From Candidatus Bathyarchaeota archaeon (GTDB lineage: Archaea; Thermoproteota; Bathyarchaeia; Bathyarchaeales; DTEX01): 64,000 nt of DNA. Location of the stretch: the NCBI GenBank assembly GCA_018396995.1, contig JAGTQB010000001.1, forward strand, positions 1-64,000, in the 5' to 3' direction. The notes beneath the pieces were generated by a model. That model was not told the DNA's origin and searched no databases. It saw nothing but the letters and a program-made list of their open reading frames with translations. Shown here piece by piece: positions 53,818-62,194 of this stretch. Every line of letters starts with the position of its first letter. Positions within the stretch are counted from its first letter, which is position 1. The position numbers and the translations under genes are program-made.

Positions 53818-54699
53818 TCATTCCCTAAGTTTTGGCCCCCTCCCCTCAACAAGGTATGGTAGATTGTCTACTCTGAATACTACAATCTTATCATCAAACT
53901 TATTGAGGTATGATAGAAGAAGCTTCTTGCCTAATCTCGTTAATGCGAAGACAGGTATCGTTACGCCGAGTTGCATTAACGCCCTCGGCCCAACAACCCT
54001 ACGTATGATTTGGGAGGCGCTGGCACAAACTATGTCTGCTCCAGAAGCTATTATTTCGGCATCTTCTTCAGAGATACATGTATTACATACTGAGAAGATC
54101 GCAACCTCCAGTCCTCTCTCCCCCTCTATCCGGCGAATCTCCAATATCGAGCTTGGGCTGAAGCCAGCTACGGTGACTGCTATACGTTTATAGCCTAGCT
54201 CGGCGGCCTTTAAAACACCCTTCTCTTGGCTTATTATAGCGCTTCCCTCATCCAAGATCACTCCTCCCCTACTCTTGATATATTCTATTATCCCCCTAAT
54301 TGGGCTGGTTCTAATTATACCAGTTAACCTAGCCCCAATCTCCTGAACGAGTTTTGGGTTCGCTGTTATGACTGTCCCAGCGCCTTCACAAACTGTTACT
54401 CCACACTCTATAATGCCATCCTCCATACATGTTGATATAATCTCCGAGCTGCCGTAAGGCACTACTTTAGTGGGGTCGAAGACCCTCCACTCACAGCAGA
54501 AACCAATGTTCCTGACCTTCATCTCGACGACTCGCTTAACAGCATCAACATCAACTTCACGGATTCCAGAGAGTTGCTCTAGGAGGGGGCAATATGCCAC
54601 CCTCTGCTTAGATAAAACCTCTATTTTACCCTTTTTAAGTAAGACTTTAGCTCCACAGCAATAAAATTCATGTTCTCCGGATACGTCGGCTAGAGCCAT
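53818..54699 (-). CDS. DUF2099-family / methanogenesis marker 8-like protein
   Basis: YCPLLEQLSGI, CTMEDGIIECGVTVCEGAGTVITANPKLVQEIGARLTGIIRTSPI-like block, IAVTVAGFSPSS. Confidence 0.78.
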   Translation of the reverse strand: MALADVSGEHEFYCCGAKVLLKKGKIEVLSKQRVAYCPLLEQLSGIREVDVDAVKRVVEMKVRNIGFCCEWRVFDPTKVVPYGSSEIISTCMEDGIIECGVTVCEGAGTVITANPKLVQEIGARLTGIIRTSPIRGIIEYIKSRGGVILDEGSAIISQEKGVLKAAELGYKRIAVTVAGFSPSSILEIRRIEGERGLEVAIFSVCNTCISEEDAEIIASGADIVCASASQIIRRVVGPRALMQLGVTIPVFALTRLGKKLLLSYLNKFDDKIVVFRVDNLPYLVEGRGPKLRE

Positions 54700-54709
54700 T
54701 ATATCCCTC

Positions 54710-56803
54710 CTAGCCTAAAGCCTCCTCCACTATTATGCTTCTACCCTCCCTTTTATCAACTCTTATAACATAGTCCGCCTTTTCCGCAAAGGCTTCACTA
54801 TGCGTCACCGCTATGATCTGCTCAATGCTCTTTAGGCGCGAGAGCATCTCAGCTAACTTATCTATTGATCCATCTTCCCTGCCAAGACTCTCTGTCGGCT
54901 CGTCAAGTATAAGTATGCTGAGACCTCTCCCGGATTTGAGGTGCATGATTATCTGGCCTACGCCAAGCCTGTATGCGATGGCTAGGAAAGTTCTCTCGCC
55001 GCCAGATAGGTTATGCGCGCCCCTCTCATACCCTTCCTCGCCCCTCATTATTGGCGTATAACTTTCATCTATGCTGACCGATAAGGGCGGCTTTTCGGGT
55101 CCCATGAGCTCATCAAGTATCTGCTGTACGAGCTTCTCAAGGTACTTCACAAAGTCGCTGCGGATTCTTGGCTGTATGCTCCTATAGGCTGTTCTAGCCT
55201 CCTCAATGAAAGTGAGAATCCTCTTAACCTTCTCTAAGCGCTCCATCTTCTTTTGAGCCATGTCTAGCCGCCACTTAAGATTATTCAACCTATTTACTAT
55301 CTCGCTCCTCTGAGTCTCTAGGATCTGAACCCTGGACTTTATGTTTGAGTACTCCTCGAAGGCCTCATTATAGCGCTTCTGCGCCTCCTCAAGCGCGGAG
55401 TAATCGAAGCCCGCTATCATGGATAACGTTTCTTCGAGCTGTCTCCTCACCTCATTAAGCTCTATCTCTTTAACCCTCATCTCCTCGACAATTTTATTGA
55501 GGGCTTTTTTCTCATCCTCAATCTGCCTAACGATCTCCTCTCTCTTAGGAATTATGCTCTGGAGGCTGGAGAATATTGTGAATAAGGTGCTTCTCAGGCG
55601 CTCCAGCTCCTTAGCGTTTTTATCTAGCTCATTTAGTTGTTGCTTATAGTTCGCTATTTCGTCATAGAAGCGCTTCATTAGCCCCTCTTTATATTCGGGT
55701 GGAAGGGGCTGGAGACATAGAGGACACTTATTCTCCATCGCTAAGCTTGATAGGCGTTGGCTAATCCTTTTAATCTCACTTCTGACGCCTTCCTCCTCAC
55801 CCCGTATGCTCGATATCTGCCCAACAATAGCATTAATATATGCCTGTAGACTCTGAAGCGTCATATCTGCCTGAAAACCCAGCTCCGTAAGTCTCCTCCT
55901 AAAGATGCCTTCTTGACTGAGGAGCGTCTCGAGACGGCCCTCAAGCTCACTTATCTTCCGCTTCCTCTCCTTAACATCACTCATAAGTCTCATGTAAACA
56001 TTCTCAAGAGCACTGATTCTAGACTTAAGCTCCATCTCTTTAGCCCTGAGCTCATCACTTCTCCTGCGCAGCTCCATGAGCTCTCCTAATCTGGCAGATG
56101 TCTCCCTTAGTTTAGCCTCGGCTTCCGCAAGTCTCTTTTTGGCATCCTCTATCTCAGCCTCCTTAGTCACAAGCTCCCTCACAGCCTCGTCATATCTCTC
56201 CCTAACCTCCCTAGCGCCAACGACTTCCGGATCCTTAGAGAGGTTCTCCAGCTCACTCTCATACCACTTTTGGATTGATCTAATGTTAGCCCAAGAAGTC
56301 TCGTAATCAGATATCCCGAAGAGCTGATCGAGAACCCTCTGCCTATCACTTGGCGCCATATCTAGTATTTCCTTTAACCTCTCCTGCCTGATCCAAACGA
56401 TGTTTCGAAAGATATCCTTATCGAGTCCAGTAATCGACTTTAGCTGCTCTATTACTGCTTCGTTCTTCGTCTCGGCGATAAGCTTACTCCCCTCAAAGAG
56501 CTTCAGCAATTCTGGATCGTGGCTTATTTTATCTCCTCTCCTCCTAAGACCTCTCCATATAGCATATTCCTTCCCGCCCTCAACAAACTTTAATATAACC
56601 TTCCCGTAATTGGCTCCTTCTCTGAGGAGGTAATCGTAGCTTCTGCCGAGTGGCTCTCCAAATAGGGCGAAGTCTATAGCGTATAATATGCTGGTTTTCC
56701 CAGCCCCAAGTCCGCCGACAAGACAATTAAAGCCTTTGGAGAACCTCACAGTGGTCTTAACATGTGACCTAATATTCTCTATTATAACGCTTTCTATTCT
56801 CAT
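54710..56803 (-). CDS. rad50: Rad50-like SMC-family ATPase with CxxC zinc hook
   Basis: Walker A GGLGAGKTSILYAIDFALFG, hook CPLCLQPLPPEY, signature LSGGERTFLAIAYRLG, ILDEPTESLG. Confidence 0.93.
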   Translation of the reverse strand: MRIESVIIENIRSHVKTTVRFSKGFNCLVGGLGAGKTSILYAIDFALFGEPLGRSYDYLLREGANYGKVILKFVEGGKEYAIWRGLRRRGDKISHDPELLKLFEGSKLIAETKNEAVIEQLKSITGLDKDIFRNIVWIRQERLKEILDMAPSDRQRVLDQLFGISDYETSWANIRSIQKWYESELENLSKDPEVVGAREVRERYDEAVRELVTKEAEIEDAKKRLAEAEAKLRETSARLGELMELRRRSDELRAKEMELKSRISALENVYMRLMSDVKERKRKISELEGRLETLLSQEGIFRRRLTELGFQADMTLQSLQAYINAIVGQISSIRGEEEGVRSEIKRISQRLSSLAMENKCPLCLQPLPPEYKEGLMKRFYDEIANYKQQLNELDKNAKELERLRSTLFTIFSSLQSIIPKREEIVRQIEDEKKALNKIVEEMRVKEIELNEVRRQLEETLSMIAGFDYSALEEAQKRYNEAFEEYSNIKSRVQILETQRSEIVNRLNNLKWRLDMAQKKMERLEKVKRILTFIEEARTAYRSIQPRIRSDFVKYLEKLVQQILDELMGPEKPPLSVSIDESYTPIMRGEEGYERGAHNLSGGERTFLAIAYRLGVGQIIMHLKSGRGLSILILDEPTESLGREDGSIDKLAEMLSRLKSIEQIIAVTHSEAFAEKADYVIRVDKREGRSIIVEEALG

Positions 56804-58014
56804 TAGAATAGTTCCTCCAGAATCTTCCTGACCTTGCCCTCATCATCTCTAACAAGATATTGAATCAAGTCTATGGCTGCACGTGCTCTCTTCTCAGCCT
56901 CTTCACGACTATAATTGCGCTGTATGAAAAACTGTAGGAAATACTCGTAAGATTTTGTTCTCAAATCTTTCATGCCAGCATTGAAGATACCCTTTATGAT
57001 TTCCTCGGAGATTTCGGTCTCCCTCAAAAACACAATTGGGTGCACTATGAGGGCCTTCTCAGCCGCACTCCTAATTCTAGCCAAGTCAATCTCCTTCTTA
57101 GATGCCCCTACTGGGAGGACCCCCTTTAAGACAGGAACTATAACCGCCCCAGCCTCATCAGCCTCCCTCACAGTCTTCACCGCAGCCTCAACTATATCCT
57201 TTGGATGGAGCCCACTGTAATCCCTCTCTATAACCTTAAACTTGCGTGTTCTTTCGAGCTTTATATAATTTAAATTGACTTCCATGTCTCGGCTGACTTC
57301 GACATAGTAGAAGCCCTTCATGAAGGCTGCGTCTTCATAGCTCACGTTCTCCGTTGAGCCGCTGTAGGCCACGATGCCGCCCCTTAACCTGAAATGGATT
57401 GGTGCGTGTATGTGTCCACCAGCATAATAGTTAAAGCCGTCTGGAATCAGGTTTGGGCTGGCATCCGCCGCAGCCCTGGGAAAGACACTACTTATTTCTG
57501 AAGTATCTAAAGCCATGTGAAAGACAAATATATTAAATTTGTCTTTTCGGGGTGCGGGTTTTTTGAGACTATAAAAGCCTGATATCCTCTCTTCAAACCT
57601 CTCCCTCGTCCTAAAGTTTGGTATGCCGTAAACATAACAGTAATCATTCTCCCAACATGCACCATCATGTCTTGGAAGGTAACATATTAAGCCAGCAGTA
57701 TCAAGTGGATTGAGTATAGTTCCAGTCACAACGTTCGGCGCATGATCATGCGATCCATCAACAACTAGAACTGGAATATTTGCCTCCTTTAGCCTCCTAA
57801 AGTTCCTAACAGCCCTTTCCAGAGTTATGTTTGATGGTCTAGCGTGGTGGAATAGATCTCCAGCAATTATCACGAAATCAGGCCTAAGTTCCAGAACCTT
57901 CTCAACAACTTCGGAGAATGCGTTATCGAAGTCGTCTCGTCTCTCGCTGAGATTATACTGCTCATATCCGAGGTGGGTATCAGCCACATGTATAAAGGCA
58001 AAGCCACTGCTCAA
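56803..58014 (-). CDS. mre11: Mre11-like DNA repair exonuclease
   Basis: HVADTHLGYEQYNLSERRDDFDNAF, IIAGDLFHHARPSNITL, VDGSHDHAP, YAGGHIHAP; overlaps Rad50 start. Confidence 0.94.
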   Translation of the reverse strand: MSSGFAFIHVADTHLGYEQYNLSERRDDFDNAFSEVVEKVLELRPDFVIIAGDLFHHARPSNITLERAVRNFRRLKEANIPVLVVDGSHDHAPNVVTGTILNPLDTAGLICYLPRHDGACWENDYCYVYGIPNFRTRERFEERISGFYSLKKPAPRKDKFNIFVFHMALDTSEISSVFPRAAADASPNLIPDGFNYYAGGHIHAPIHFRLRGGIVAYSGSTENVSYEDAAFMKGFYYVEVSRDMEVNLNYIKLERTRKFKVIERDYSGLHPKDIVEAAVKTVREADEAGAVIVPVLKGVLPVGASKKEIDLARIRSAAEKALIVHPIVFLRETEISEEIIKGIFNAGMKDLRTKSYEYFLQFFIQRNYSREEAEKRARAAIDLIQYLVRDDEGKVRKILEELF

Positions 58015-58586: not shown

Positions 58587-60620
58587 ATGCTGATAACAGA
58601 AGTGATATTAGAGAACTTTATGTCATATGAGTATGCTAGGATACCCCTTAAACCTGGCGTTAATATAATCTGTGGCCCTAATGGCGCTGGCAAATCATCT
58701 ATTCTCCTTGGAATATCAGTTGCATTGAGCCAATCCTATACTGAGCGCTCTAAAAGGCTCAGCGACCTAATAAGGTGGGGGAAGGATGTTGGTCGCGTAA
58801 CTTTGGTCTTGAATAACGCTAAGGTTAAGGGTAAGCGCCCAGTCCCAAAGATAAATAAGGATCAGATTTATTTGACTAGGGTTTTGAGGCGTGACGGCAA
58901 ATACTGGTTTGAAATCGATAATGCTGTGGCAAGTAAAGCGGATGTTTTAAGGCTCCTATCGCGTTTTAACGTTGATCCAGAGAATATGCTGATAATAATG
59001 CATCAGGATATGATTGAACAGTTTATTCTGCTCTCGCCGCAAGAGAAGCTTAGGCTCATTGAGTCAGCCACTGGTCTAGAGGCTTATCGCAGAAATGTTC
59101 TAGAAGCGCAGAGTAAGCTGAGCCGCGTATTAAGCGAGGAAGAGTCCCTAAGGAAGATGCTTGAGTCGATTGAGCAAACCCTCAATTACTGGCGTGAGCA
59201 ATATGACCGGTACCAGGAAAAGAAACAGTTGATTTTAAAGAGGCGCTTTTTAGAGCGTGAGCTGGCGTGGGCTGAGGTTGTTAGGAGGGAGGATGAGGTT
59301 GAAAAGCTGAAGAGGGAGGTTGAGGCTAAAAAGGCGGAGATAAATGCTCTTGAATCCTTAATTAGTGAGTTGGAAGATAAAACTGCTCTCCTTAAAAGTG
59401 AGGTTGCGAATCTAAAGGAGAAGAGGGGCTCTCTCCTAGAGGAGATAATATCTCTTGAGAGGGAAAGGGCTAAATATATGGTTGATATCTCAAGGAGCGG
59501 CGAAATATTAAGTAGCCTGGAAGACCTTCTCATGCACGCGGAGAAAGACCTCACAGACCTTTTAAGAAGCATTTCAAAGCCCGAAGTAAGCGTTAACTTC
59601 CACTCATGGAGCACTGTAAAAGATGATCTCGTTAGGACTGTAGGCGATTTTGAGAGGAGACTCAATGCCATCAGATCCAAAATCGGTGAGATTAAGGATT
59701 TAATGGAGATCAGCGATGTTAAGCTCGCCAATATTGAAGTTAGGCTCCTAGACATTAAGGATGAGATGCGAAGAGCTGAGGAGGAGATAGATAGATTAAC
59801 TGATACGCTCGTTGACAATAAGGTTGACTTGGCTATCCTCAATTATAAGAGGGAAACATTATTAGGTGAAATAAATTCCCTAGATAAGAAATTAGATTAT
59901 ATGCTCTTCAGCCTTAATGAAGCTGTTAAGAGGGCTGAGGAGAAGGGTGCACGCGTAGCAACTACACGGAGCCCAAACGAGATTATAGAGGAGATCAGGG
60001 TTATAGATGGGCGGCTAATGGCCATGACAGATATTTCGGAGGAGGTAGAGAGAATGTATGAATCATACTCTAAGCTTTACTTTGAATTAAAGGAGAGAGC
60101 TAAGATTGCGGCCGAGAATAAAGAGAAGACTTTGGGGGAGATTAAGGCTCGTATGGAAAAATGGAGGATGGTTATCAAGGATTTATTAAGGAGTGTTGAT
60201 GCCGAGTACCAGAACATTCTCTCAAAGATTGCCGGAGTCGGCTTTGTTCGCCTAATCAACGAGGACGATATTGAGGAGGCTGGAATAGAGATTCACGTAG
60301 GGTTCAGGGGGTCCCAGCCGATACCATTAAACATTTACTCGCAGAGTGGAGGCGAGAGGAGCGCGGCGACAATGGCATTTCTCTTAGCTCTTCAGAAGCA
60401 TATAAAATCTCCATTCAGGGCAATAGATGAATATGATGTGCACATGGATCCGAGGAATCGTGAAGTCTTTGCAAATCTTATAATATCAGCTATCGGTGAT
60501 GAAAGTTCACAATACTTAGTAATAACGCCGAACCAAATGTTCTTTGAGGGAAAAAATGTTCATGTTATTGTTGTTCAAAATATTGAGGGTAAATCACTTA
60601 TAAGGGAGGTTACTCAATGA
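58587..60620 (+). CDS. Smc5/6-like SMC ATPase (compact)
   Basis: GVNIICGPNGAGKSSILLGISVALSQS, QDMIEQFILLSPQEKLRLIESATGLEAY, SQSGGERSAATMAFLLALQ, PFRAIDEYDVHMDPRNR, SQYLVITPNQM. No CxxC hook seen. Confidence 0.9.
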   Translation: MLITEVILENFMSYEYARIPLKPGVNIICGPNGAGKSSILLGISVALSQSYTERSKRLSDLIRWGKDVGRVTLVLNNAKVKGKRPVPKINKDQIYLTRVLRRDGKYWFEIDNAVASKADVLRLLSRFNVDPENMLIIMHQDMIEQFILLSPQEKLRLIESATGLEAYRRNVLEAQSKLSRVLSEEESLRKMLESIEQTLNYWREQYDRYQEKKQLILKRRFLERELAWAEVVRREDEVEKLKREVEAKKAEINALESLISELEDKTALLKSEVANLKEKRGSLLEEIISLERERAKYMVDISRSGEILSSLEDLLMHAEKDLTDLLRSISKPEVSVNFHSWSTVKDDLVRTVGDFERRLNAIRSKIGEIKDLMEISDVKLANIEVRLLDIKDEMRRAEEEIDRLTDTLVDNKVDLAILNYKRETLLGEINSLDKKLDYMLFSLNEAVKRAEEKGARVATTRSPNEIIEEIRVIDGRLMAMTDISEEVERMYESYSKLYFELKERAKIAAENKEKTLGEIKARMEKWRMVIKDLLRSVDAEYQNILSKIAGVGFVRLINEDDIEEAGIEIHVGFRGSQPIPLNIYSQSGGERSAATMAFLLALQKHIKSPFRAIDEYDVHMDPRNREVFANLIISAIGDESSQYLVITPNQMFFEGKNVHVIVVQNIEGKSLIREVTQ

Positions 60621-61477
60621 CGTCAGAAGCGAGTAGTATGTCTAAGAAGGATATTATAGCCGCTCGCGAAGAGCTTTTACGGATAATTAACCTCTGTAAA
60701 TCTATTGAGCTCAAGGGCTTAGATCCTTATTCAGTTGATGTTGAAGATCTCATCAAAGTTATTAAGAGTTACTTTCCTATGTGGAGGGAGAATGAGGATC
60801 TTTGTTTAGACGCGGAAGCTCTTAATCACATAGCATCTGTAGTTAAAATGCAGAGTGAGTGGGTTAAGAAGAGGGCTACTAAACTTTATCGAGATCCCCT
60901 CCTAATAGAAGAAAAGATTCGTAGTTTGCCGGCGGATGAAATTGCTGAAATATTTCTCAGGGCGTGGCGTCCAATAGTTGAGCTTGAGCAACTGACAATG
61001 AGATGTTTCCGTGAGGCGCTTAAGTACTGGGGTAACCTACTCCCGCTTAGCGAGAGGTGGAAGAAAACCAGCTACATTATGACTGAACCAGAGGCTATAC
61101 GGAGAGAAGATGCTATTAAGGAAGGAGTGTTGGCAGACGAGTCCTTTATGTCCGATCTGGAGAGGATTTGGCTTGAACTAAAGAACTCTTTTCTTAAAGG
61201 CGGAAAGATTAAGTACTGGAACTTTATCAATTCAGATACTTTCGAAGAGACTATCAGAAGAGCTTACTTAACCAGTTTTCTTATAACTTATGGTTATGCA
61301 AGGCTTGAAATAAACCCCCTTGAGGACGAAATATTTATATTGCCAAACGATAAGCTTGCACGGCCCCCAGAGAGCGAAGTTATATCCTTCCCAATAGCCA
61401 TAAGCTTTGAAGAGTGGGTGAAATGGAGGGAAAAGCAAGAAGCGGAGAGAGAAAAGCATACCATGCTACAAAAATAA
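60617..61477 (+). CDS. Candidate Nse4/ScpA-like kleisin
   Basis: ATGA overlap with SMC gene. N-term LCLDAEALNHIASVVKMQSEWVKKRA; C-term YWNFINSDTFEETIRRAYLTSFLITYGYARLEINPLEDEIFILP...ISFEEWVKW resembles Nse4 C-terminal domain. Confidence 0.75.
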   Translation: MTSEASSMSKKDIIAAREELLRIINLCKSIELKGLDPYSVDVEDLIKVIKSYFPMWRENEDLCLDAEALNHIASVVKMQSEWVKKRATKLYRDPLLIEEKIRSLPADEIAEIFLRAWRPIVELEQLTMRCFREALKYWGNLLPLSERWKKTSYIMTEPEAIRREDAIKEGVLADESFMSDLERIWLELKNSFLKGGKIKYWNFINSDTFEETIRRAYLTSFLITYGYARLEINPLEDEIFILPNDKLARPPESEVISFPIAISFEEWVKWREKQEAEREKHTMLQK

Positions 61478-62007
61478 GAAAGGCTGCACAACTGCTCTTT
61501 TACAAGAGACACTCCATCCCAGGAGCGAGGGGATGGGAGCTTAAAAAGAAGATAGGCTCAGATTATCTAAAGGTCATAAACCTATTAAATGAATACTTAG
61601 CAAAGATAGGGCTCACAATTAAAACCGTCTTTGAGGAGGAGACTAACCCACCAGAGAACCCGTCAAATGAGCAGTATGATAAGGCAAGGTTTTACATTAC
61701 ATTAAAGGATGAGGTAAACGTTGAAGATGCTAAGATGATGGGCTGGCGAATAGATGACCTAGCGGCACTATGCGCCTCAATAGCATTCATAATCTCTAGG
61801 GGCGGGAAGGCTCCAAGAAAAGAACTAGAAGATTTATTAAGGGCTAAGATTCCAGAGTGGCGTGTTGAAACAAGCATTAATAAGTTTGTGAGGATGGGTT
61901 ATCTGATTGAGGATGAGGATGAAATGATATATATAGGGTGGAGAACAAGGGCTGAAGTTGACCAAAAGAAGCTGTTAGACTTATTGCTCGAAGCCGAAGG
62001 CAAATGA
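61423..62007 (+). CDS. Candidate MAGE/Nse3-like tandem winged-helix (KITE) protein (track start 61414 GTG; in-frame ATG at 61423)
   Basis: KAAQLLFYKRHSIPGARGWELKKKI...LLNEYLAKIGLTIKTVFEE...YITL and LAALCASIAFIISRGGKAPRKELEDLL...FVRMGYLIEDEDEMIYIGWRTRAEVDQKKLLDLLLE follow the MAGE domain pattern. Confidence 0.75.
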   Translation: MEGKARSGERKAYHATKIRKAAQLLFYKRHSIPGARGWELKKKIGSDYLKVINLLNEYLAKIGLTIKTVFEEETNPPENPSNEQYDKARFYITLKDEVNVEDAKMMGWRIDDLAALCASIAFIISRGGKAPRKELEDLLRAKIPEWRVETSINKFVRMGYLIEDEDEMIYIGWRTRAEVDQKKLLDLLLEAEGK

Positions 62008-62033: not shown

Positions 62034-62194
62034 TCCCTGATTTTCAAAGGATATTTTCATAGAAGACTAGACTATGTTTACTGGAGAGCGGGAACTGAGA
62101 TGGATCAAAAGAAGATAATAAACCTGTTGCTTAAAGCCAAAAGCTTAGAGCTAAAAATCAATTTAATCTATTTAAGAAATCAAGATTTTATATA
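62034..62194 (+). pseudogene. Degenerate duplicate of the C-terminus of the Nse3-like gene
   Basis: In-frame GYFHRRLDYVYWRAGTEMDQKKIINLLLKAKS versus GYLIEDEDEMIYIGWRTRAEVDQKKLLDLLLEAEG at the end of the upstream CDS. Confidence 0.8.

Follow-up and report, generated by a model that had tools for sequence, protein, structure and literature searches.

The locus examined here lies near one end of a 64,000-nucleotide stretch (the window) of contig JAGTQB010000001.1 from a Candidatus Bathyarchaeota archaeon (assembly GCA_018396995.1). It comprises three tightly packed genes on the + strand. Gene 1 (58587-60620) encodes an SMC ATPase of 677 aa and shares an ATGA overlap with gene 2 (60617-61477), which encodes a kleisin of 286 aa. 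Gene 3 (61414-62007) encodes a protein of 197 aa predicted to fold as a tandem winged helix (KITE) and begins inside gene 2, which it overlaps by 64 bp from the GTG at 61414. An alternative ATG at 61423 would yield a protein of 194 aa and a 55-bp overlap, and was evidently the start used in an earlier note that first pointed to the operon. This arrangement is not a chance occurrence. All three genes are adjacent and in order in 46 of 50 Bathyarchaeota loci, nearly always with the same small overlaps (typically -4/-1/0 and -34 bp). Three of the exceptions (loci L006, L040 and L042) are cut by contig ends, while the fourth, L017, is a true exception in which the SMC gene has no partner within the 6 kb downstream. 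The order SMC-kleisin-KITE on one strand is also kept in 36 of 40 loci from other families of the phylum Thermoproteota. Of the remaining four, L117 has the SMC gene nearby on the other strand, and L099, L112 and L121 lack it in the 8 kb retrieved.

Gene 1 matches the Pfam family SMC_N (E=6.9e-34) and carries the expected ATPase motifs. The Walker A motif GPNGAGKSS (58674-58700, residues 30-38) has G30, P31, N32, G33, G35, K36 and S37 invariant in 23 sequences. The ABC signature QSGGER (60342-60359, residues 586-591) is likewise invariant, and its glutamine is also found in Smc5. The Walker B region FRAIDEYDVHMD (60414-60449, residues 610-621) contains the pattern PFR...DE(F/Y)DVHMD, which resembles both Smc5 (PFR) and Smc6 (DEFDV.MD). 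By phmmer against the PDB, the best matches of the whole protein are yeast Smc5 (1.8e-35) and human SMC5 (4.8e-29), ahead of archaeal Smc (3.1e-27), with Smc6 following at 1.2e-22. To avoid bias from the coiled coils, the two halves of the head were searched alone. The N-half matches Smc5 at 1.1e-18 and Smc6 at 2e-15, then Smc3 and Smc2, whereas the C-half matches human SMC5 at 4.1e-22, SMC6 at 3.4e-14 and archaeal Smc at 6.1e-14.

A maximum-likelihood tree of 62 heads (38 family members, 9 canonical archaeal SMCs, Smc2/3, Smc5/6 of yeast and human, and 8 Rad50s) groups the family with Smc5/6 (SH-aLRT 98.4, UFBoot 99) and places the canonical SMCs with Smc2/3 (96.3/99). When Rad50 is left out, the split between the family plus Smc5/6 and the canonical SMCs receives a UFBoot of 100. 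However, AU tests do not reject a grouping with canonical SMC (p=0.23) or with Rad50 (p=0.13), and only four Smc5/6 sequences from two species could be used. Smc5, Smc6 and the archaeal family form an unresolved trifurcation (Smc5+Smc6 UFBoot 32; archaeal+Smc6 63). Sequence motifs agree with the tree. The proline of ITP after Walker B is present in 37/38 family members and 4/4 Smc5/6 but in 0/12 canonical SMCs and 0/8 Rad50s. The arginine of PFR is present in 37/38 family members and 3/4 Smc5/6, and is replaced by tyrosine in 12/12 canonical SMCs. Finally, QSGGER and LALQ match Smc5.

Interestingly, the SMC chain is unusually short. The distance from Walker A to the signature is 441-563 residues, against 1046-1059 in canonical SMCs of the phylum, and the arms are about half length. 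No SMC_hinge domain was found in any family member scanned, while the canonical SMC of the same genome shows this domain at 1.5e-24. In addition, none of 78 family proteins has a CxxC hook.

The product of gene 2 is an Nse4-like kleisin. Nse4_C is its only Pfam match (7e-4) and is the top Pfam family in 24 of 25 members (best 1.9e-5). It is also found in 21 of 38 divergent members (best 1e-6), with no other family recurring in more than two. The top four PDB matches of the family profile are all Nse4 or EID3 chains, albeit at weak E-values of 0.01-0.08. The AlphaFold2 model (pLDDT 78.6) contains a helical N-terminal domain and a C-terminal winged helix, and its best fold matches are Nse4 in yeast Smc5/6 (3.5e-4, 1.0e-3), followed by ScpA, condensin and cohesin kleisin chains; the whole-chain TM to Nse4 is nevertheless low (0.28-0.31). 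The N-terminal domain (60644-60886, residues 10-90) is predicted to form helices at residues 10-33, 42-55 and 59-90, with pLDDT mostly about 85-95 but 54-65 at residues 1-10 and 81-90. By inference from kleisin structures, it would bind the SMC neck. The kleisin-like character that the earlier note saw in this N-terminus is supported by the predicted fold and not by a significant sequence match (ScpA E=0.37). The C-terminal winged-helix domain (61220-61435, residues 202-273) bears the Nse4_C match, and by Foldseek also matches the C-terminal wHD of ScpA (4i99_C, TM 0.77 by target length).

The assignment of gene 3 is the least secure of the three. Its only Pfam match is MAGE (residues 116-184) at a weak E of 0.07, and sequence-profile searches of the PDB found no Nse3. 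Across 38 divergent members, however, the recurrent families are MAGE (8, best 2.8e-4) and SMC_Nse1 (7, best 1.2e-4), with nothing else in more than two. The AlphaFold2 model (pLDDT 81.7) is a tandem winged helix, with a first winged helix at 61450-61704 (about residues 13-97) and a second at 61720-62001 (about residues 103-196), the latter including the MAGE-like end WRTRAEVDQKKLLDLLLE. All five PDB fold matches with E<=0.001 are MAGE-G1/Nse3/Nse1 chains. Predicted fold, Pfam and operon context agree. Where the earlier note likened the protein to MAGE/Nse3, it is as close to Nse1 as to Nse3 by profile, and so looks like the undivided ancestor of both rather than an Nse3.

The kleisin and the KITE are each found in 159 of 400 genomes sampled across the phylum (79 of 164 genera for the kleisin), in nearly the same genomes and mostly once each, and the KITE is present in 160 of 199 closer relatives. 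No Asgard loci were returned by the one named genome collection scanned, although the genome search is centred on this phylum. The window's own genome has a single SMC gene of this type, alongside a separate canonical Smc-ScpA-ScpB operon and Mre11-Rad50. Intriguingly, some lineages appear to lack the canonical SMC. With the canonical SMC as query, control genomes at about 31-32% identity give 213-501 bits, while 16 genomes in seven families (89-99% complete) give only the short Smc5/6-type gene and Rad50-like or other coiled-coil genes. In these genomes this is the only SMC-kleisin complex found, although they are drafts and a very divergent SMC could be missed.

Taken together, these observations support, with good confidence, a minimal SMC-kleisin-KITE complex of the Smc5/6 branch that is co-inherited as an operon. 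This agrees with the proposal of the earlier note that the operon encodes a prokaryotic relative of the Smc5/6-Nse3-Nse4 core, except that the SMC lacks the hinge domain and long arms of Smc5/6. It is not a full eukaryotic-type complex. In comparison with the eukaryotic core of Smc5, Smc6, the Nse4 kleisin and the Nse1 and Nse3 KITEs (PDB 7qcd, 7tve, 7ymd, 7dg2), the head type, the Nse4-type C-terminal domain and the predicted Nse1/Nse3-type KITE fold are shared, but there is one SMC gene and one KITE gene instead of two each. Moreover, the KITE has a single cysteine and no RING match, and no Nse2, Nse5 or Nse6 is encoded within the operon. By analogy with established SMC biology, it is inferred that two identical SMC chains engage through ATP at the heads, are bridged asymmetrically by the kleisin and join at a short hinge-less coiled-coil apex. 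A KITE homodimer would sit on the kleisin linker and contact DNA, with ATP cycles driving DNA clamping and probably loop extrusion. The inferred cellular role is general chromosome maintenance or repair, alongside canonical Smc-ScpAB in this genome and as the only SMC-kleisin complex in other lineages. In the simplest history, the operon keeps the state from before the Smc5/Smc6 and Nse1/Nse3 duplications, with hinge and arm shortening being either ancestral or secondary. It is possible, though only tentatively so, that this is a living one-copy form of Smc5/6, with a KITE homodimer ancestral to both Nse1 and Nse3, that serves as the chromosome organiser in several archaeal families that have lost or never had canonical SMC. 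Such a compact three-protein relative would provide a natural minimal system in which to ask what an Smc5/6 machine needs.

The SMC protein itself is very probably not new. An ‘SMC5/6-related’ class of archaeal SMC proteins has been published (PMC9389158, citing Yoshinaga & Inagaki 2021) and very probably includes this family. As summarised in PMC9389158, that class concerns only the SMC protein, and partners and hinge loss are not mentioned there. The partners, the hinge loss and the sole-complex lineages may be new, although a 2024 preprint on the prokaryotic roots of SMC complexes (van Hooff et al.) may already describe the partners.

Among alternative explanations, a diverged Smc-ScpA-ScpB condensin survives best but remains unlikely. 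In this view, an ordinary SMC has lost its hinge and is accompanied by fast-evolving ScpA and ScpB, its likeness to Smc5/6 reflecting the shared ancestry of all SMC complexes. The three-part composition, with predicted SMC and KITE homodimers, is the same, the kleisin C-terminal domain also matches the ScpA wHD, and the AU test does not reject the grouping outright. However, the canonical operon sits elsewhere in the same genome with clear SMC_hinge, ScpA and ScpB matches. Its ScpA and ScpB are recognised as SMC_ScpA and SMC_ScpB, which genes 2 and 3 never match in any member, and both the UFBoot values and the ITP/PFR motifs place the head with Smc5/6.

A defence or anti-plasmid system of the Wadjet/MukBEF type that restricts foreign DNA is more doubtful still. 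The predicted fold of gene 3 does match JetABC and MukE chains (ranks 9 and 14 in Foldseek), and eukaryotic Smc5/6 silences extrachromosomal DNA (PMC10586767). Nonetheless, the SMC and kleisin differ, no JetD-like nuclease gene lies in the operon, the conserved set has no fourth operon gene, genes 2 and 3 match no PADLOC model, and no plasmid carries a gene 2 relative. Inheritance through most of the class as a single-copy gene, and as the sole SMC in some lineages, suits housekeeping, although an additional silencing role is not excluded. Lastly, a Rad50 or ASRP (coalescin/Sph)-type repair or compartment protein with two unrelated DNA-binding partners is very unlikely despite the short chain and the neighbouring Mre11-Rad50 in the window, since the CxxC zinc hook that is a hallmark of Rad50 and ASRP (PMC9389158) is absent from all 78 family proteins, the ASRP score is 92 bits against a cut-off of 300, the head does not group with Rad50 in the tree, and Mre11-Rad50 was found beside the operon in only 2 of the loci.

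Just downstream of gene 3, at window positions 62078-62145, the DNA reads in frame, as judged by eye, VYWRAGTEMDQKKIINLLLKAKS, a degenerate copy of the C-terminal end of gene 3 (IYIGWRTRAEVDQKKLLDLLLEAEGK) and a remnant of a partial duplication. On the other side of the operon, and divergent from it, lies an Mre11-Rad50 pair (window 54710-58014, - strand), in which Rad50 is only 697 aa long and has the zinc hook. Among the loci fetched, Mre11 and Rad50 were found beside the operon only in two, L001 and L003. Next to Rad50, a DUF2099 family archaeal protein of unknown function (E=4.7e-81) is encoded at window 53818-54699 (- strand).

No canonical SMC was detectable in genomes G008, G062, G109, G189, G218 and 11 further genomes, although these are 89-99% complete, and only the short Smc5/6-type SMC is found there. 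One Bathyarchaeota locus (L017:2027-4072) carries an SMC of this family without kleisin or KITE beside it in the 6 kb downstream.

Other genes recur around the operon. A conserved protein of about 230 aa with no Pfam match (L012:62-760, - strand, in one of the related loci, and relatives in 25 loci) is often transcribed divergently 100-300 bp upstream of the operon. In loci other than that of the window (L090:2-1612, + strand, in another related locus, and relatives in 17 loci; L012:7322-10496, - strand), an Lhr-type helicase (WH_Lhr, DEAD_assoc) often lies convergent just downstream, and RNA polymerase and NusA/L30e-like genes, the assignment being made by eye, are also recurrent convergent neighbors.
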